From positions 1 through 53,010 of the IMG/VR virus record IMGVR_UViG_3300034631_000008: a stretch of DNA of 53,010 bases. The stretch is one strand, 5' to 3'. The DNA is from a virus. The first letter of the stretch is position 1, and the number at the start of each line of letters is the position of its first letter. Under the pieces are notes generated by a model. The model searched no databases. It had not been told where the DNA came from and worked only from the letters and a program-made list of their open reading frames with translations. The position numbers and the translations under genes were made by a program. This document shows, one piece after another, positions 2,955-52,741 of the stretch.

Positions 2955-3620
2955 CTATAGCGCCCCCTCCCCATCCTTCCGCTCCCCACGCGCCACGATC
3001 CGCAGCACGTCATCCGGCAGCGGCCGTTGCAGCGCCGACGCCTCCGCCCACTCCGCCCGCATCCACACGTCGATCTCCTCGGGCTCCGTCAGGATCACCG
3101 GCATCGCCTTCGGGTGGATCGGCGCGACGATCGCGTTCGGCTCGCAGGTGAGGAAGGCGTAGAGGTCGGCGTTCACCTCCCCCTCCTTCACCTTCCGAAC
3201 GCTCGTCCAGTTCGTCCAGATCCCGGCGAACACCATCAAGGGCCGGCTCTCGTCCCGGGCGAACCACACGGGCACCTTCTTGCCCTCAGGCGTCGTCTCG
3301 TACTCGGAGAAGCTGGTGAACGGCACGACGCAGCGGTTTGCCGGGCCCAGCCAGCGGCGCCAGTGCGGCGACTTCACGTTGCGGACGTTGGTGACGCCGC
3401 TGTCGACGGTGCGACCCTTCAGCACGAACTGCGGCGACGGCATGCCCCAGCGCATCATCGTCAGTTCGCGTTCGCCGCCCTCCCCGTTTCGCACCACCGG
3501 CGCCAGATAGTCCGGGAAGATGCCCGGCAGCGATGGCATGTTGCCCGATCGGTCCCGCATGGCGCGGTTGAACTCTAGGATGGCCGCCTGGCCCTTGGTG
3601 ATGGAATAGAGGTTGCACAT
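2955..3620 (-). CDS. SRAP-family protein (HMCES/YedK-like)
   Basis: A 221-residue SOS-response-associated peptidase family protein. These proteins crosslink to abasic sites in single-stranded DNA through the N-terminal cysteine and shield them from breakage. The active-site residues can be placed: C2 (exposed after Met removal), N78, E106 in FSEYE, and H169 in IHPKAMP. The start must be ATG 3620, because the upstream GTG (3623) would bury Cys2. It is convergent with the RhuM gene. No LexA-type box was identified. In a prophage it may protect phage DNA during induction or be simple cargo. Confidence 0.93.
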
Positions 3621-12804: not shown

Positions 12805-13415
12805 CACTGGCTCCACTGGTAGAGCAGCGACGAGCCCCGGCCGCTATCGGTAGGGACCGACGTGGAGCGCGCATCGCCACGGTTCACCGTTCCCGCTGCC
12901 CGATCGACCGTAGCCGAGCCAGATGCGCGAGAAGCGGACGGGGGAGCCGCACGACGTGAATTCGCCCCACCGGGCTTGTTCGGTCCGCCCGACGCCGCCG
13001 CGCTTCCCTGTCGCCCGCCCTCGCCCGCTCTGGACGTGTCGCCCGGAACGGATGCCGATGAGACGATCAGCACCTTCTGGAATTCGACCCGGCCCCGGAA
13101 CACCCGGCTGAACTCGCTGGTCCGCTCCGGTGCGATCCGCTTGATCAGCAGATCGGTGTGGACATCGAAGCCGGAGACTACGGTGAAGGGGATGCGAGCC
13201 GCCTGCCACGCCTTGAGCGCCTGCCAAGTCACCGCCGCGCTCGGCGTCACGATGTCCCAGACGAGCGTCTCCGGCTCCATGTGGGCATGATCGGTGGCGA
13301 CCGCTCCCGATTCCAACGGGATCTCCGTGATCGACAGGACGCTCTCCGGCCGCTCGCTTTCCACCACTGCGATCGGCACCGGCCCGATGGCGCGGGAGAA
13401 GAGGATCGCACTCAT
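12804..13415 (-). CDS. Dit-like baseplate/tail protein
   Basis: A 203-residue protein whose first 140 residues match the Dit-like N-terminal domain of phage tail adaptors, with SVLSITEIPLESGAVATDHAH followed by TWQALKAWQ. The C-terminal 60 residues are a low-complexity tail rich in Ser, Gly, Arg and Ala. ATG 13415 overlaps the tape measure stop by four bases; the longer ORF upstream is an artefact of the high GC content. It connects the tape-measure end of the tail to the hub. Confidence 0.8.
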   Translation of the reverse strand: MSAILFSRAIGPVPIAVVESERPESVLSITEIPLESGAVATDHAHMEPETLVWDIVTPSAAVTWQALKAWQAARIPFTVVSGFDVHTDLLIKRIAPERTSEFSRVFRGRVEFQKVLIVSSASVPGDTSRAGEGGRQGSAAASGGPNKPGGANSRRAAPPSASRASGSATVDRAAGTVNRGDARSTSVPTDSGRGSSLLYQWSQ

Positions 13416-15754
13416 GGGGCCGCTGCCGGCTGGACTACCTGAGGCCGAGACTGGACCGGGCCGGCTGCCCTGGCGCCTGCCAGGGTCTGAAGGGAGCGGA
13501 GGCGTGCCTCTGCCCGATCTGCTGCGGCCATCCACTGGCTGACGTCGAGCGTAGCCGTTGCGTTGATGCCGCGCGAAAGGTCGGCCTGGATCGCCAGCGC
13601 CTGGTTGGCCGGCGCCATGAACCCGGTGATGTCCAACAGGGCCTTTGCCGTCGCCGTCATGTTGCTGATCGACGCGATGATCTCGCCGATCCGGGTTGCC
13701 GCGGCGACACTGTCTTCCTCGCTCACACCGTATTCGACCCGCAGGCCTTCGGCGTTCTGCCGGCCATCGCGGACCAGTTGCGCCTCAGGCGTATAGGAAA
13801 GCGGCTCTCGCGATGCCGTCTCCATCACCGCGGCACGGACTTGATCCAGCTTTGCGACGATCGGACCGACGACTTCGGTAACAGTACCGGCGAGGCCGGC
13901 AGAAGGAGGCGTGGGCGCAGCATTGACGACCGGCGCAGGGGGCCTTGGATCGACAGGCCCCGTTGCGGGAGCCGTCGACCTCGACCCCGTGATGACATCG
14001 GTCGCCATGCCAAGCTTGCCTGCCAGCCAGTCGGCAGCTGCACTGGTCTTGGCGGCAGCTTCCCGCAGCTGCGCCTCGTTGACCTCAACGACGATGGGAT
14101 CGCCCGTCGCCGGCGCCACGCGGCGACCTTCGGCATTCTGAGCCCGGAACTTCGCATCGAGCGCATCGTCGGTGTATGCGCGTGGGGTTTCCGGCGTGCG
14201 GGTCGCCACTCCCGTCGAGCCAAGCGAACCCTCCGGGATAGGTTCTGCCACCTGCTCCGGACCGATGAAGCCGAAGCGCGTCAGCGCACCGCCGAGCTTC
14301 TGGTCGATCGCAGCAACGAGCCGGTCGATCTGGGCGATGGCTGCGCTCACGAAGCGCTCCCATGCCGCTTCCGGGTTGTTCAGCACCTCGCCGATGGCGT
14401 TGAGCGCCGTCGTGATCTGCTGGATCGTGTCCGCCATCTCGTTGAGGAAGCGGACGATCTCCGTCGATGCAAAACCCTTGGCAGATCGGGTGAAGGCGTC
14501 GAGCGGGTTCTCGCCGGCAAGCTGGCTGATGCCGAGAATGCCGTTGATCGCGTCGGCCACGCCATTCGCGCCGTCGACCATCTCTTTGAACGAGGCGTTG
14601 ATCCGGTCGATGGCCTCCTGGCCACCCTCCAGCGTCCCGATGATGCTGTCGTCGCCGTTGAGCGCCGAAAGCAGGTCGTCGATGACGAGCAGGCCCGCGA
14701 TCATCGGTACGCGACGCGCGACTGCCATCATTGCGCGGCGGCCGAAGGCAGAGGTCGCCAACAGACCGGCACCGAGACCGATTGCCGTTGTCGCCTTGCC
14801 GAGCCCGTTGACGCGGGCAATCAGGCTGACCACACCGTCGGCGGCATAGTAGAAGCCGCGACCGATCCGGTAGGCCTGCGTCGCGAGATGCGACACCGTG
14901 TTGATGCTGCCGATCAGCCCGTCCGAGATGCCTTTGGCGACGTTGGCGACGAGCCCGCTCTCGAACGCCTGGTTCGTGAAGTCGAGAACGCCCTGCATCC
15001 GGCGCTTGATGTCGTCGTAGTAGCCGGCGTCCCCGATCTCGCGCAGAAACTCGGTCCAGCTGTCGGACAGGTTCGACGTCATGCCGACCCATGTCTTCGA
15101 CTGCTCGTCCATCGCGCCACTGAACCGGCCGAAGATGTCCATCAGCGCCGACTGGATCTCGACGGCGTCCTTCTTCACCGTCCGGGTGAGCGCCTTGCCG
15201 TTCTCCGTCCAGCTGTAGGTGATGTTGTCGCCTTCGGCCGCCGCCCGGATGCCGAACTCCTTCAGGCGTTCGTTCTCGCCCGTGACCGCGTCAGCGATCG
15301 CCTCGACGCCCTGCATCAGGGACTTGCCCATGGCGGACGCCGCGTCGCCGACGGTCCGGAGCGATCCGTCCATCGGGTCGATGCCGTAGGACTTCAGCCG
15401 GACGAAGGCCTCGGTGACCTGGCCAGCCTCATAGGGCGTGGTGCGGCCGAATTCGGTGATCCACTCCATCGACCGGCGCGCCTCCTCGGCCGATCCGGTG
15501 ATGGTCTTCAGGGTGGCCTCGTAGGTCTCGAACTGCGCGTTGACGGTCGCGATCGAGGCGACGAAATTGCCGGCCATCCGCCCCAGCTGCAGCCCGCCGA
15601 ACGCGGCCGCAGCGACACCCGCCAGTTTCGTGAGGCTGGATGCGAATCCCTTGGCGCCCCGTTCGGCACCCTTCATGCCCTGCTCGAATTTGCGGAGATC
15701 ACCCTCGCCGCGCAGATCAAAGCCGAGGATGGCGATAAGCTCGTCGACGATCAT
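13412..15754 (-). CDS. Tape measure protein
   Basis: A 780-residue tail-length-determining protein. The N-terminal third holds the conserved tape-measure domain: ATVNAQFETYEATLKTITGS, then FVRLKSYGIDPMDGSLRTVGDAASAMGKSL. Hydrophobic segments follow around residues 325-365, and the C-terminal half is Ala/Pro-rich. ATG 15754 follows an AAGGTG site; the GTG at 15763 is a less likely start. Normally this gene directly follows the chaperone; here a plus-strand cargo gene separates them. Confidence 0.93.
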   Translation of the reverse strand: MIVDELIAILGFDLRGEGDLRKFEQGMKGAERGAKGFASSLTKLAGVAAAAFGGLQLGRMAGNFVASIATVNAQFETYEATLKTITGSAEEARRSMEWITEFGRTTPYEAGQVTEAFVRLKSYGIDPMDGSLRTVGDAASAMGKSLMQGVEAIADAVTGENERLKEFGIRAAAEGDNITYSWTENGKALTRTVKKDAVEIQSALMDIFGRFSGAMDEQSKTWVGMTSNLSDSWTEFLREIGDAGYYDDIKRRMQGVLDFTNQAFESGLVANVAKGISDGLIGSINTVSHLATQAYRIGRGFYYAADGVVSLIARVNGLGKATTAIGLGAGLLATSAFGRRAMMAVARRVPMIAGLLVIDDLLSALNGDDSIIGTLEGGQEAIDRINASFKEMVDGANGVADAINGILGISQLAGENPLDAFTRSAKGFASTEIVRFLNEMADTIQQITTALNAIGEVLNNPEAAWERFVSAAIAQIDRLVAAIDQKLGGALTRFGFIGPEQVAEPIPEGSLGSTGVATRTPETPRAYTDDALDAKFRAQNAEGRRVAPATGDPIVVEVNEAQLREAAAKTSAAADWLAGKLGMATDVITGSRSTAPATGPVDPRPPAPVVNAAPTPPSAGLAGTVTEVVGPIVAKLDQVRAAVMETASREPLSYTPEAQLVRDGRQNAEGLRVEYGVSEEDSVAAATRIGEIIASISNMTATAKALLDITGFMAPANQALAIQADLSRGINATATLDVSQWMAAADRAEARLRSLQTLAGARAAGPVQSRPQVVQPAAAP

Positions 15755-15813
15755 GCGTTGCACCTTGCGGGCCGGGCGCCGATATTCCGGCTGTTCTGAC
15801 GGGAGACGAGAAA

Positions 15814-16122
15814 ATGCGAAGACTGATCACCGCTGCCGCGATGCTGGCTTCGACCGCGGCACATGCCGGCTGGCAGGAAACAGCGATCCAGGAAATCGAG
15901 GCAGAGCCGAAGGTGGTCGAGGCCATGTTCCAGAACGGCGGCCGCGTCCTGTGGGTGTCGATGCAGGACGACGGGACGTCGCGTGACGGCTTCGCCGACT
16001 ATCTGTGCCTGATCCTGTCGGAAGCTGGCCGTCCGGAGGATCAAGGCGTGACGGTTCGCATCTGGGATGCTTCCGTGATGCGCGACGAACTCCGCCAGAT
16101 CGGCGAGGGCCGCTGCGGCTAA
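15814..16122 (+). CDS. Small exported protein inserted in the tail operon
   Basis: A 102-residue protein with a clear signal peptide (residues 1-18, RRLITAAAMLASTAAHA) and a soluble domain with two Cys (about 65 and 101). It is on the strand opposite all surrounding tail genes. Its TAA (16120-16122) overlaps by three bases the TAG that ends the frameshifted chaperone extension (16121-16119). It has its own ribosome binding site (GGGAGACGAG). This is a typical cargo ('moron') position, between chaperone and tape measure. Function unknown; a periplasmic location is likely. Confidence 0.75.
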   Translation: MRRLITAAAMLASTAAHAGWQETAIQEIEAEPKVVEAMFQNGGRVLWVSMQDDGTSRDGFADYLCLILSEAGRPEDQGVTVRIWDASVMRDELRQIGEGRCG

Positions 16123-16354
16123 TCCCGCCGGGCGCGCTCCTGCATCGCTTCCTTCAGATCCAGCGCCTCGTGCATATCGAGCAGATCGGTCAGCGTGACC
16201 CACTCGTTCATGTCGCGGAGCATGCACATCGGCGGCTCTGCCAGGATCGGCCGCCAGAGCCAGAGGTTGAGGTTCGGCGCTATGCGCCGGACTTCCCTCT
16301 CGCCAAGGCTGCGGCCCCCTTCTTGGCGCTCATACTGCCCATGAGGCCGGAGAT
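16119..16354 (-). CDS. Tail chaperone extension made by -1 frameshift
   Basis: After a -1 slip at the heptamer 16361-16355, reading continues open to TAG at 16119 and adds 78 residues, giving a 224-residue fusion instead of 170. The extension ends in a plausible conserved domain (APNLNLWLWRPILAEPP, then DLLDMHEALDLKEAM), similar in kind to the T part of lambda G-T. It has no good start codon of its own upstream of that domain. This explains the 160 bases between the short chaperone stop and the next gene. Confidence 0.82.
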
Positions 16355-16792
16355 AAAAGGGCCGAGGACTTCCTTCAGCACGAAGCCGACGACCTCGTAG
16401 AGCCCGGTCGGGTCGGTCGAGAACTCGGTGTCGATGTCGGCCTGTTCATAGGACCCGTTCGCCGCCTTGACCTCGGCCATGGCGACCATGTCGGCGAGGA
16501 AGGACACGCCGGCATCGGGCTTCATGTTGCCGAGGATGCCCATGACAACGCCGATGATCTGGCTGTTCGCCGCCGAGAGCTTGGCCATATCCTCATCGGT
16601 GATCGAGGGCGCATTCTGCCCCTGATACCTGGACTGGATCGCCGAGGCCGACTGCATGGCCTCGATCGCCTTGGGAAGCTCGGCCGCCGAGCCGCCCAGG
16701 AGGTTCATGACGCGGAACTGCAGAGCCAGTGCCTCTCGAGCGAGCGGCTGCTGGACGCGAAACAGGCGCCCCGCGATCTTCTTCTCAGCCAT
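16280..16792 (-). CDS. Tail assembly chaperone (short form)
   Basis: A 170-residue helical protein between the tube and tape measure genes, the fixed place of tail assembly chaperones. It starts MAEKKIAGRLFRVQQPLAREAL and ends in a Lys/Ala-rich tail. Such proteins coat the tape measure before tube polymerisation. Lambda gpG and gpGT are the model: most ribosomes stop at the short form, and a few shift frame to make the long form. A slippery site is present near the 3' end. It follows the tube gene after three bases. Confidence 0.85.
   Translation of the reverse strand: MAEKKIAGRLFRVQQPLAREALALQFRVMNLLGGSAAELPKAIEAMQSASAIQSRYQGQNAPSITDEDMAKLSAANSQIIGVVMGILGNMKPDAGVSFLADMVAMAEVKAANGSYEQADIDTEFSTDPTGLYEVVGFVLKEVLGPFISGLMGSMSAKKGAAALARGKSGA
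16355..16361 (-). promoter_or_regulatory. Slippery heptamer for -1 frameshift
   Basis: The minus strand reads C CCT TTT in the zero frame of the chaperone gene. This is a canonical X-XXY-YYZ heptamer (X=C, Y=T, Z=T), at codons 144-146. Both tRNAs can re-pair after a -1 slip, and the new frame stays open for 78 codons. Confidence 0.82.
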
Positions 16793-16795
16793 CGG

Positions 16796-17233
16796 TTATG
16801 CCCTCGGGATGCGGTGCTGGAAGTTGCCCGTCCAAAGCACCCACGTCCGCACCGATGCGTTGGTGCCCTGCTGGACGCCGGGCGCCTGCATGATCATCGC
16901 CCGATCACAGGCGCCGCCCTCGTTGCTGTCCCCATCGCGGAAGGTCAGCGGGATGCCGGCGAGATTGCCGCCGCGCTGGCGGGCGAGCTGCTGGTGCAGG
17001 AGATTATGGAGCGGGGACCGATGCTGCACCCGGAGCGTGATCCGAGCCGAGTTGTTGACCGCCTGGGAGAAGATCGAAGATCCATCCGCCCCGACGACGC
17101 CGGTGCCGATGTCGGCACCCTCCTCGACGGTGATGGTGTCGTCGCCTTCCCAGAAACCGACCATGTCTCGACCGTTCAGCGTTCCGGTCACATTGCCGAA
17201 GCTGTAGGTCGTCTGAAGCGAAGAGCGCGCCAT
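16796..17233 (-). CDS. Tail tube protein (DUF3277)
   Basis: A 145-residue protein of the DUF3277 tube family. Landmarks are the N-terminal SFGNVTGTLNGRDMVGFWEGDDTITVEE, the QAVNNSARITLRVQHRSP segment, and CDRAMIMQAPG near the C-terminus. It stacks in hexameric rings inside the sheath. The sheath gene normally lies directly upstream; here an HNH gene on the other strand separates them. Confidence 0.92.
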   Translation of the reverse strand: MARSSLQTTYSFGNVTGTLNGRDMVGFWEGDDTITVEEGADIGTGVVGADGSSIFSQAVNNSARITLRVQHRSPLHNLLHQQLARQRGGNLAGIPLTFRDGDSNEGGACDRAMIMQAPGVQQGTNASVRTWVLWTGNFQHRIPRA

Positions 17234-17300: not shown

Positions 17301-18005
17301 ATGGATGTGCCAATGCCCAAGCACTCAGGCTTCAAGGATCATTCGGGGCGCACCTTTGGCCGATGGACCGTGAAGTCCTACGCAGGCGTTCGGGGTGTGC
17401 ACCATTACTGGATGTGTTCGTGTGCGTGCGGGACAGAGAGACCGGTTAACGCCGGCAGTCTCAGCAAGGGCGTAAGCAAGTCCTGCGGCTGCTTGGCCAA
17501 GGAGCAGATATCGGAGCGACTCCTGACGGATCGAACAGGACAGCGCTTTGGCAGGCTGACGGTAGTATCCCGGACCTTAAACAGGGGCGGGCAGACCGTG
17601 TGGCTATGCTCTTGCGACTGTGGAAACACTGCCGAGGTTTCCGGCAGCGCCTTGCAGAGTGGGAATACACGCTCCTGCGGATGCCTCCGCAACGAGAGGA
17701 CCCGCCAGCGCCGGTCGACGCATCGACAGACAAAAACGCCGGAATGGAATTGCTGGTGCGCTATACGGAAGCGATGCCATAACGAGAATGATGCCGCTTA
17801 TGCCTACTACGGCGGGCGCGGCATCAAGGTCTGTGACCGGTGGCAAGAAAACTTTGCAGCCTTCTATGCCGACATGGGGCCGCGTCCTTCTCCTGACCAT
17901 TCCATCGACCGCATCGACAATGATGGCGACTACGAGCCCGGCAACTGTCGATGGGCGACGAAGAGCCAGCAGGCATTCAATCGCCGCGCCAAGGGCACCC
18001 GCTAG
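17301..18005 (+). CDS. HNH homing-type endonuclease with two zinc repeats
   Basis: A 234-residue protein. Residues 15-64 and 78-128 are two copies of one zinc-binding repeat: (T/R)FGR(W/L)TV, then a CSCxCG pair and a closing SCGC. The C-terminal part has YYGGRGIKVCDRW and HSIDRIDNDGDYEPGNCRWAT (from H200), the usual ending of phage HNH endonucleases of this class. It is on the strand opposite the tail operon and lies exactly between sheath and tube genes. Its TAG shares bases with the sheath TAG (CTAG at 18002-18005). This is the picture of a free-standing homing endonuclease that inserted without damaging the operon. Confidence 0.88.
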   Translation: MDVPMPKHSGFKDHSGRTFGRWTVKSYAGVRGVHHYWMCSCACGTERPVNAGSLSKGVSKSCGCLAKEQISERLLTDRTGQRFGRLTVVSRTLNRGGQTVWLCSCDCGNTAEVSGSALQSGNTRSCGCLRNERTRQRRSTHRQTKTPEWNCWCAIRKRCHNENDAAYAYYGGRGIKVCDRWQENFAAFYADMGPRPSPDHSIDRIDNDGDYEPGNCRWATKSQQAFNRRAKGTR

Positions 18006-19162
18006 AAGCGCATGGTGATCGAAATCGTGGCGAAGTGGACAGCGCCGGCGTAGCGGAAGTTGACCTGCACGGCGGGCGCGATGCGCGCCTTGCGCTGCGC
18101 TGCCGAGATGGCGTCCACGTCGCCCGGCGTGACGGTGAAGGCCGGCACGAACTCGCCGTTCTCGTCCTCGTAGTCGGCGACGATGCCGGCGCGACGCGCG
18201 CGGACCATGACGGCCTCCGCGGCACCGGCGAGAATGCGCATTCCGTTCGGGTCCATCGCGATGCGCTTGTTGTTCAGCAGCGCGGCGAAGATCTCCTCCT
18301 CCATCCGCGCCGACAGCCAGTCGCCGGCATGGATCTCGTCGGTGAACACGTTCGCCGTCAGGGTCGAGCCCTCGACCACCAGGTTGACGCCCTTGGTGTC
18401 GACGTAAGTGTTGGCCAGATGGCCGGCCGTCGAGTTCTGGCCCAGCGCCGGGACAAATCCGGTGATGGCCTGAACGACAGCGGTGCCCTTGTTGATGCTG
18501 GAGAGACCGTTCAGCCGCTTGAACTTCCCGGTGTAGGCCGCGCCTTCCTCATCGAAGTTGAAGGTGCCCAGCTTGGCCGCGTAGGCGAAGCCCGGGTACT
18601 TCGTTGCGTCGGTGTGGTAGAAGACATTCGCGCGCTCGTAGGCGCCCTTGTGGCGAGCCGAGATGTTCGTCGCGTCACCGGCGTCCTCGTGCCCGTCGTC
18701 GTTGGACGTCAGCATCGCCTGCTTACGGCGCGGCTCGCACCACTCGATCACGGCATCGGAGCCGGGACCGTCGCGGAGCACGGCCTCGACATCAACCCAG
18801 TAGAAGCCGTCGTCGGCGTTCTCGATCGCGTCCAGCGCATCGGCGATGAAGGCTTTCTCGGCCGCCGCGTCTGCAGCGCCGGCAAAGCCCGTCGCATCGT
18901 ACCAGCCGGCCTTGACCTGCAGCGGCGCCGGGTTCTGGGCGAAGGCGAGACTGGCGGCCTCGTAGAACGGCTGGCCGGCATCGCAATCTACCGCGACCTC
19001 GGCCATGGAGCCGTAGGTGATGGTCAGGTTGTCGGCATCCAGCTTGCCGGCCACCGTGGTCGACGTGAGCAACAGCGCGACGCCGAAGCCCTCGATGCTG
19101 GGGAAGCGATCATCGCGCGTCAGGTTGACGTCGACGAACCGCGAAATGGGCAGCTTGGCCAT
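18002..19162 (-). CDS. Tail sheath protein (DUF3383)
   Basis: A 386-residue contractile sheath protein of the DUF3383 family. The N-terminal LPISRFVDVNLTRD and the C-terminal TVTPGDVDAISAAQRKARIAP, ending in VHFATISITMRF, are typical. ATG 19162 is preferred to TTG 19171 because AAGGA is ten bases upstream. The sheath contracts to drive tube and spike through the envelope. The gene is separated from the tube gene by the inserted HNH gene. Confidence 0.93.
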   Translation of the reverse strand: MAKLPISRFVDVNLTRDDRFPSIEGFGVALLLTSTTVAGKLDADNLTITYGSMAEVAVDCDAGQPFYEAASLAFAQNPAPLQVKAGWYDATGFAGAADAAAEKAFIADALDAIENADDGFYWVDVEAVLRDGPGSDAVIEWCEPRRKQAMLTSNDDGHEDAGDATNISARHKGAYERANVFYHTDATKYPGFAYAAKLGTFNFDEEGAAYTGKFKRLNGLSSINKGTAVVQAITGFVPALGQNSTAGHLANTYVDTKGVNLVVEGSTLTANVFTDEIHAGDWLSARMEEEIFAALLNNKRIAMDPNGMRILAGAAEAVMVRARRAGIVADYEDENGEFVPAFTVTPGDVDAISAAQRKARIAPAVQVNFRYAGAVHFATISITMRF

Positions 19163-19194
19163 GGCCAGCAAGTCCTTTCGTGACAGGCCCTTAA

Positions 19195-51507: not shown

Positions 51508-51860
51508 TGGAGACGGTTCTTGACCGCGCCATCTCGCCGGCCGAGGCTGTGGAAAAGCTGTGCGCTCGCGGTGTGAAAATCACCGAGCGCTCTCTCCGCG
51601 AGAAGGCCCGGCAGATCGGCGCTTATCGTAAGGTCGGCCGGGAAGTCTTCTTCCTGCCGGAGGACCTTGAGAAGATCGTGGAACCAGCATGCTCGAACCG
51701 AAGCGCCGTCCGAAAAGCCCGTACTGGGTCCTCCGCGGGACCATCGACGGCAAGCGCGTCGAAGTCAGCCGGAAATGGACAACCGCGGCCGCCGCGCGCC
51801 GCGCCCTCCCCGGCGTCATCGCCGAGCTATCCGCCGATCCGGTTGGTGAACAAGGTCTGA
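51507..51860 (+). CDS. Excisionase-like protein overlapping int
   Basis: A 117-residue protein. Residues 10-58 form a MerR/Xis-type winged helix (ISPAEAVEKLCARGVKI, then RSLREKARQIGAYRKVGREVFFLPEDLEKIVE). The remaining 57 residues are a low-complexity tail read from DNA that also encodes the integrase N-terminus in another frame. The 172-base overlap with the integrase recalls the xis-int overlap of lambda. It would direct Int toward excision. ATG 51507 overlaps the previous stop by one base. Confidence 0.75.
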   Translation: METVLDRAISPAEAVEKLCARGVKITERSLREKARQIGAYRKVGREVFFLPEDLEKIVEPACSNRSAVRKARTGSSAGPSTASASKSAGNGQPRPPRAAPSPASSPSYPPIRLVNKV

Positions 51861-52741
51861 CATTCCGCCAGGCTGCGGCGACCTACGTCACACTGCACCC
51901 GAACGCCCGGTTCATAGGCCCGCTGCTGCGCTACTTCGGCGAGATCCTGGTCGCAGACATTACCAACGCCGAGATGCGCCGCGCCGCGAACTCCATCTAT
52001 CCGAAGGCGGCCCCGGCCACGATCCGGCGGCAGCTCTACACCCCGGTCAAGGCGATCCTGAACCTCGCCGCCGAGGACGATCTCTGCACCGTCCCGAAGA
52101 TGCGCGCGCCCGCCGGCGGCAATAAGCGCACCGTGTTCTTCCTGCCCGAGCAGGCCAACGCGCTGATCACCGAACTCGGCCGCGATCCCAACGGTTTCCT
52201 CGCCCCGATGGTGACGTTCCTGTTCGGCCAGGGCTGCCGGATGAGCGAGGCGATCACGCTGGACGGGATGGACGTCTCGCTCGAGCATCGCTTCGCCATC
52301 CTGCGGGACACGAAGAACGGCGAGGAACGGCGCGTCTCGCTGATCCCGCGCGTCGTGGCCGCGCTGTCGACCCTTCCGACGATCGGCCAGCCAGGCCCGG
52401 TGTTCCGCCGCAGCGATGGTCTCGGCTTCCGCTATGGCAAGGCGAGCGGCGGGCAGATCAAGAAGGCCTTCGACCGCGCCCTGAAACCTGCTGAGCTCGA
52501 CCCTTCCCGCTACACCCCGCACGTCTGCCGGCACTCGTGGGCAACCTGGTTTCATGCCCAAACGAAGGACGTTCGCCGACTGCAGGACGAAGGCGGGTGG
52601 AAGTCGGGGGAATGGCAGCGCTACACGAAAATCGGCACGCCGACGCTAGGGACCGACGCGCTGCGCAAGGGCTGGGATTTCCGGGAAGTGGGGGAAAATC
52701 GGGGGAATGGCGAGGTCGAGGCATATGCTTCAAGTGCTTAG
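51689..52741 (+). CDS. int: Tyrosine integrase
   Basis: A 350-residue site-specific recombinase. The N-terminal arm-binding part (about 1-50, YWVLRGTIDGKRVEVSRKWTT) and core-binding part precede the catalytic domain. The active-site set is R184 (GCRMSEA), K209, H278-x2-R281 (HVCRHSW), W304 (GGWKS) and the nucleophile Y312 (RYTK). It is encoded nine bases from the att repeat at the right end, the usual location. It would insert the phage at tRNA-Ser and, with the excisionase, release it. Confidence 0.96.
   Translation: MLEPKRRPKSPYWVLRGTIDGKRVEVSRKWTTAAAARRALPGVIAELSADPVGEQGLTFRQAAATYVTLHPNARFIGPLLRYFGEILVADITNAEMRRAANSIYPKAAPATIRRQLYTPVKAILNLAAEDDLCTVPKMRAPAGGNKRTVFFLPEQANALITELGRDPNGFLAPMVTFLFGQGCRMSEAITLDGMDVSLEHRFAILRDTKNGEERRVSLIPRVVAALSTLPTIGQPGPVFRRSDGLGFRYGKASGGQIKKAFDRALKPAELDPSRYTPHVCRHSWATWFHAQTKDVRRLQDEGGWKSGEWQRYTKIGTPTLGTDALRKGWDFREVGENRGNGEVEAYASSA

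Follow-up and report, generated by a model that had tools for sequence, protein, structure and literature searches.

A contractile-tailed phage with a probable programmed -1 ribosomal frameshift in its tail assembly chaperone gene and with a slip site and -1 frame conserved among related loci

The closest described counterparts of the locus presented here are the TAC-N/TAC-NC tail assembly chaperones of the Vandenendeviridae (PAK_P1, PaP1, and Adele) and Andersonviridae (PMC12846349, December 2025). In that work, which comprises 56 alleles, the small open reading frame (ORF) downstream of the chaperone in the PAK_P1 family is proposed to be a -1 frameshifted C-terminal domain reached at a GTTTTT site. 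These phages share with the window (the whole stretch of 53,010 nucleotides of viral DNA analyzed here) a contractile tail, the position of the chaperone gene, a C-terminal domain in the -1 frame, and a T-rich slip site near the 3' end of the gene, and in them the C-terminal domain is usually annotated as a separate hypothetical gene. The published GTTTTT site differs, however, from the CCCTTTT of the window and from the TTTTTTC found in most of its closer relatives; four related loci that carry GGTTTTTT (L043, L048, L049, and L116) resemble it. The gpG/gpGT chaperone of lambda is also comparable to that of the window, as the gene lies upstream of the tape measure gene, slips by -1 near its 3' end, and continues in the -1 frame into a C-terminal extension; the tape measure protein is bound by gpG and the major tail subunit by the T domain, and frameshift efficiency in P2 is 2- to 3-fold above that of lambda (PMC5009743). 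An earlier, sequence-only reading of the window had invoked this G / G-T logic of lambda. Its frameshifted-chaperone layout stands, but the nearest relatives turned out to be of the Vandenendeviridae/PAK_P1 type, with a contractile tail, to judge from the sheath gene. Lambda has a non-contractile tail and slips at the heptamer GGGAAAG, both unlike the window. The E / E+E' genes of P2 provide a -1 frameshifted chaperone in a contractile-tailed phage, although the chaperone family and the heptamer differ from those of the window. A further paper, PMC11292799, does not concern this frameshift.

The 0-frame gene at 16280 to 16792 (minus strand) encodes the 170-amino-acid short form (TAC-N, or "G") of a tail assembly chaperone. 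Its product exceeded the curated cutoff (22) of the Pfam profile PF21822 (Phage_TAC_15) with 62.9 bits (E value of 5.7e-17) and matched phrog_1613, tail assembly chaperone, with an E value of 2e-8. Its upstream neighbor is the tail tube gene (16796 to 17233, minus strand; PF11681 KPP10_Orf10, E value of 3.4e-13; phrog_280), and downstream lies the gene of the tape measure protein, the expected client of the chaperone (13412 to 15763, minus strand; PF20155 TMP_3, 3.9e-21; phrog_973, 7e-55). A tail sheath gene (18002 to 19171, minus strand; PF11863 DUF3383, 1.4e-16; phrog_205 tail sheath, 1.3e-63) completes the order sheath-tube-TAC-tape measure, in which the chaperone occupies the place between tube and tape measure that is typical of G/GT-type chaperones. 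Pfam, PHROGs, and gene position thus agree on the tail chaperone assignment already made from the letters alone. The presence of the sheath gene indicates that the phage is contractile tailed, and the integrase (51689 to 52741) and the gene with an S24 repressor-type domain found in the 53-kb window indicate a prophage or temperate phage. The chaperone of the window also contains an insertion of approximately 15 to 21 residues (around residues 49 to 65; about 16568 to 16649, minus strand) that is absent from its relatives.

The same gene order surrounds the homologues in the Rhizobium phages RHEph04, RHph_N17, and RHph_TM26, Aminobacter phage Erebus, and Pseudanabaena phage Pam3, whose chaperones and extensions are 27 to 37% and 49 to 67% identical, respectively, to those of the window; as in the window, a -1-frame extension is combined with a tandem heptamer. 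For Pam3, the depositors named these proteins sheath, tube, chaperone, and tape measure, the tube being the gene equivalent in position to 16796 to 17233. The fusion was unannotated in all six phage records viewed, and the extension was either unannotated or entered as a separate hypothetical gene.

Codons 144 to 146 of the chaperone gene, which is read from 16792 to 16280, are GGC CCT TTT and include the slippery heptamer C CCT TTT (16355 to 16361, minus strand; CCT in the P site and TTT in the A site), at a position that is conserved in the homologues. The gene has no other XXXYYYZ heptamer in frame, and CCCTTTT occurs in frame only once in the 6,371 codons of 22 window genes. The -1 frame starts with TAT at 16355 and stays open for 78 codons up to the TAG at 16121 to 16119, so that the predicted frameshifted form has 146 + 78 = 224 residues; we call this extension (16119 to 16355, minus strand) TAC-C or the "T" domain. 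The 0-frame stop, also TAG, comes 24 sense codons after the end of the heptamer, and the stretch from slip site to stop (16280 to 16355, minus strand) would be read in both frames. The heptamer at codons 144 to 146, the 78-codon opening to 16119, and the predicted 170- and 224-residue forms, all of them described in the sequence-only reading, were confirmed in their coordinates and arithmetic.

To evaluate conservation, related loci were collected from public collections by separate queries with the extension and with the chaperone, and the 123 loci in which both could be found were retained. They represent 81 distinct sequences, 77 of which had a strong extension score and were kept; the distant loci L122 to L125, where the chaperone assignment is doubtful, are outside this set. 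Named bacterial genomes among the related loci belong mostly to Hyphomicrobiales. The extension lies in the -1 frame of the chaperone in 123 of 123 homologous loci. Across the 77 distinct loci, for which all counts include shared descent, the 0-frame stop falls 27 to 87 nucleotides past the TTT codon and the extension has 74 to 90 amino acids, and since every length change on either side is a multiple of three, the -1 relation is retained. The homologous phenylalanine is encoded by TTT and preceded by a codon ending in T in all 77, versus a TTT share of 30% among the upstream phenylalanine codons of the same genes. A tandem XXXYYYZ heptamer is present in 71 of the 77: TTTTTTC only (39 loci), TTTTTTT (18), TTTTTTA (4), TTTTTTG (1), the upstream site alone as CCCTTTT (4) or AAATTTT (1), and CCCTTTT together with a T6 site (4). 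The remaining six read G GTT TTT TCC (4), T TTT ATT (1), and T TTT TAC (1). The alignment of relatives, proposed beforehand as a check of the frameshift, shows that site and -1 frame are conserved, and no relative was found in which the heptamer was lost while the -1 frame was broken.

The protein encoded by the -1 frame is also conserved, with 35 to 63% identity between the relatives and the window in a 58-row alignment. Its third residue after the slip is an invariant arginine (16349 to 16347, minus strand in the window) that falls within the overlap, and it is followed by a GxWxP region and by RIAPNLN, LWRPI, PPxY, WVTL, and DAHEALDL motifs, in which AP, RP, PP, and HEALDL are conserved. 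Four-fold third-base identity was 0.47 in the overlap versus 0.36 upstream, as expected for a stretch that is read twice. From the slip site onward, the -1 frame appears to be under selection at the protein level. The extension of the window matched phrog_4364, listed with unknown function, at an E value of 1.7e-7, as did 44 of 52 family extensions (E values up to 0.001); this match and the conservation support the earlier suggestion that it ends in a real domain. Against DUF6889 (PF21829), the window extension scored 13.6 bits, below the curated cutoff of 23.9, and six of 52 relatives gave matches with E values up to 0.01 (best, 2.5e-6). Like phrog_4364, DUF6889 is listed with unknown function, and both families appear to represent tail chaperone C-terminal domains that are encoded through a frameshift.

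Structure predictions were made with alignments built from the window and the scanned loci only. AlphaFold2 modeled the extension (52 rows) as a small all-helical domain with a mean pLDDT of 91.6. The best named viral matches in Foldseek were small uncharacterized proteins of phiEcoM-GJ1, Pectobacterium phage PM1, PaP1, and PAK_P1, with a probability of 1.00 and E values of 0.02 to 0.07, all above 0.001, and with a sequence identity of 14 to 16% for PAK_P1 and PaP1. These PAK_P1-type targets are likely the ORFs of the frameshift proposed for the PAK_P1 family. A fold search of the PDB with the extension gave no match, and searches of solved structures by sequence and fold with both domains gave no informative one. 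The locus shows all those features of the frameshifted-chaperone logic that are accessible to in silico testing, and we consider it very probable that the chaperone gene contains a programmed -1 ribosomal frameshift.

We weighed three other ways of explaining the same arrangement. The extension could be an independent small gene that begins at a start of its own, either inside the chaperone gene or beyond it, as the separate small coding sequences annotated there in the RHph_N17 and Erebus records and the existence of phrog_4364 and DUF6889 as stand-alone families would suggest. However, only 8 of the 77 loci offer, ahead of the conserved RP motif, a start codon in the -1 frame that is accompanied by a Shine-Dalgarno-like match, conservation begins right at the slip site and thus upstream of the annotated starts, and an independent gene would need neither a -1 relation in every locus nor an invariant TTT; we regard this explanation as highly unlikely. 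The change of frame could also lie with RNA polymerase, slipping on the T run, and not with the ribosome, an idea favored by the runs of six to eight T at the site in most relatives and most applicable to the four G GTT TTT TCC loci that lack a tandem heptamer. In the window and its two closest relatives, however, the site has only four T (CCCTTTTA), and exactly the heptamer suited to tandem slippage is retained. A run of four T is too short for efficient polymerase slippage, which makes this mechanism unlikely in the window, and we give it even less credence than a separate gene.

Codon usage provided the background for the chance expectations. CCT and TTT are both rare in the window gene set (8.6% of proline and 9.4% of phenylalanine codons, respectively), and the probability of C CCT TTT at Gly-Pro-Phe with codons drawn at that usage is 0.005. 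Of the synonymous resamplings, 44% had some XXXYYYZ heptamer in the overlap, so the presence of a heptamer is by itself weak evidence, as is the open -1 frame, because the other alternative frame is also open (109 codons) in this window of 65% GC. What is decisive in lifting the case above chance is conservation, both of the -1 relation in the 123 loci and of the protein in that frame. Although such heptamers and long open frames are common at this GC content, a chance heptamer in an unused -1 frame of a GC-rich gene is contradicted by the conserved slip site and by the -1 frame protein shared across the 58 aligned rows, and is the least credible explanation of all.

For the programmed -1 ribosomal frameshift, a possible stimulator is a Shine-Dalgarno-like AAGGA (16371 to 16375, minus strand), identified by sequence match 9 nucleotides upstream of the heptamer. 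A match of at least 4 nucleotides occurs at this place in 68 of the 77 loci versus 30% of control positions; the window has a poor version of the motif, and its close relatives L008 and L010 have none. Its role is suggestive, being confounded by the conserved K/Q/R-E residues and their codons. Downstream of the site, no significant stimulatory RNA structure was detected in the window (z of -0.01). The family mean z of -0.9 was calculated against mononucleotide shuffles only and was rejected as evidence of downstream structure.

The slip site itself varies along the family. In most relatives the site is T TTT TTC and lies one codon further downstream than the C CCT TTT of the window. A maximum-likelihood tree calculated from chaperone and extension together places the window in a clade with L008 and L042 (support 100/96) in which all members have CCCTTTT only; the sister L010 (93/97) has both sites at once (CCCTTTTTTT), and L013 and L057, which branch next, carry the T6 site alone (92/88). 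Elsewhere in the tree, L082 (AAATTTT) and L085 (CCCTTTT) form a second pair with the upstream site only. The four loci without tandem heptamer that read G GTT TTT TCC form a single clade (100/100) and keep the -1 frame, and in them the slip may involve the P site only or be transcriptional. We lean toward the view that the slip site shifted at least twice, T TTT TTC giving way to C CCT TTT or A AAT TTT one codon further upstream, through forms with both sites (CCCTTTTTTC and CCCTTTTTTT) and with the -1 frame never left without a slip site, the clade of the window representing the end state and its sister L010 still holding both. As the tree is rooted at the midpoint, we only infer the direction of the movement; CCCTTTT is probably derived within this chaperone family.

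According to this frameshift model, most ribosomes would read 16792 to 16280 and release the 170-amino-acid chaperone, and in a minority tRNA-Pro on CCT and tRNA-Phe on TTT would shift back by one base and pair with CCC and TTT. The slipped ribosomes would enter the -1 frame at the TAT of 16355 and end at the TAG of 16121 to 16119, producing the 224-amino-acid form, which ends in the small helical domain. If the lambda gpG/gpGT system is a guide, the shared N-terminal domain would coat the tape measure protein, the rarer C-terminal domain would recruit the tail tube subunit, and neither form would stay in the virion. We infer the slippage itself, its ratio, and the division of labor between the two predicted forms.

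Two additional ORFs are found around these genes. One, of 102 amino acids (15814 to 16122, plus strand), has an apparent signal peptide (MRRLITAAAMLASTAAHAG) and no Pfam match; it lies between the extension and the tape measure gene, and its stop overlaps that of the extension. At the same place, the close relative L008 has a different signal-peptide-like ORF of 129 amino acids (3161 to 3550), so this position is possibly a hot spot for cargo genes. The other, on the opposite strand between the tube and sheath genes (17301 to 18005, plus strand), encodes a Cys-rich protein of 234 amino acids that resembles an HNH-type homing endonuclease, with CSCACG and CSCDCG repeats (RIDNDGDYEPGNCRW), and also lacks a Pfam match.

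Together, one proviral chaperone and 76 distinct related loci are added to the frameshifted tail chaperones, with the window as a further example, well supported by comparative sequence evidence, of an already known phage frameshift strategy. The family provides a natural series of slip sites in one gene (TTTTTTC, both sites, CCCTTTT, and GGTTTTTT) that would be useful to study how the slip ratio is kept while the site evolves. It also suggests a role for phrog_4364, and probably for DUF6889, as the C-terminal part of a fusion made by frameshifting and not as genes in their own right.
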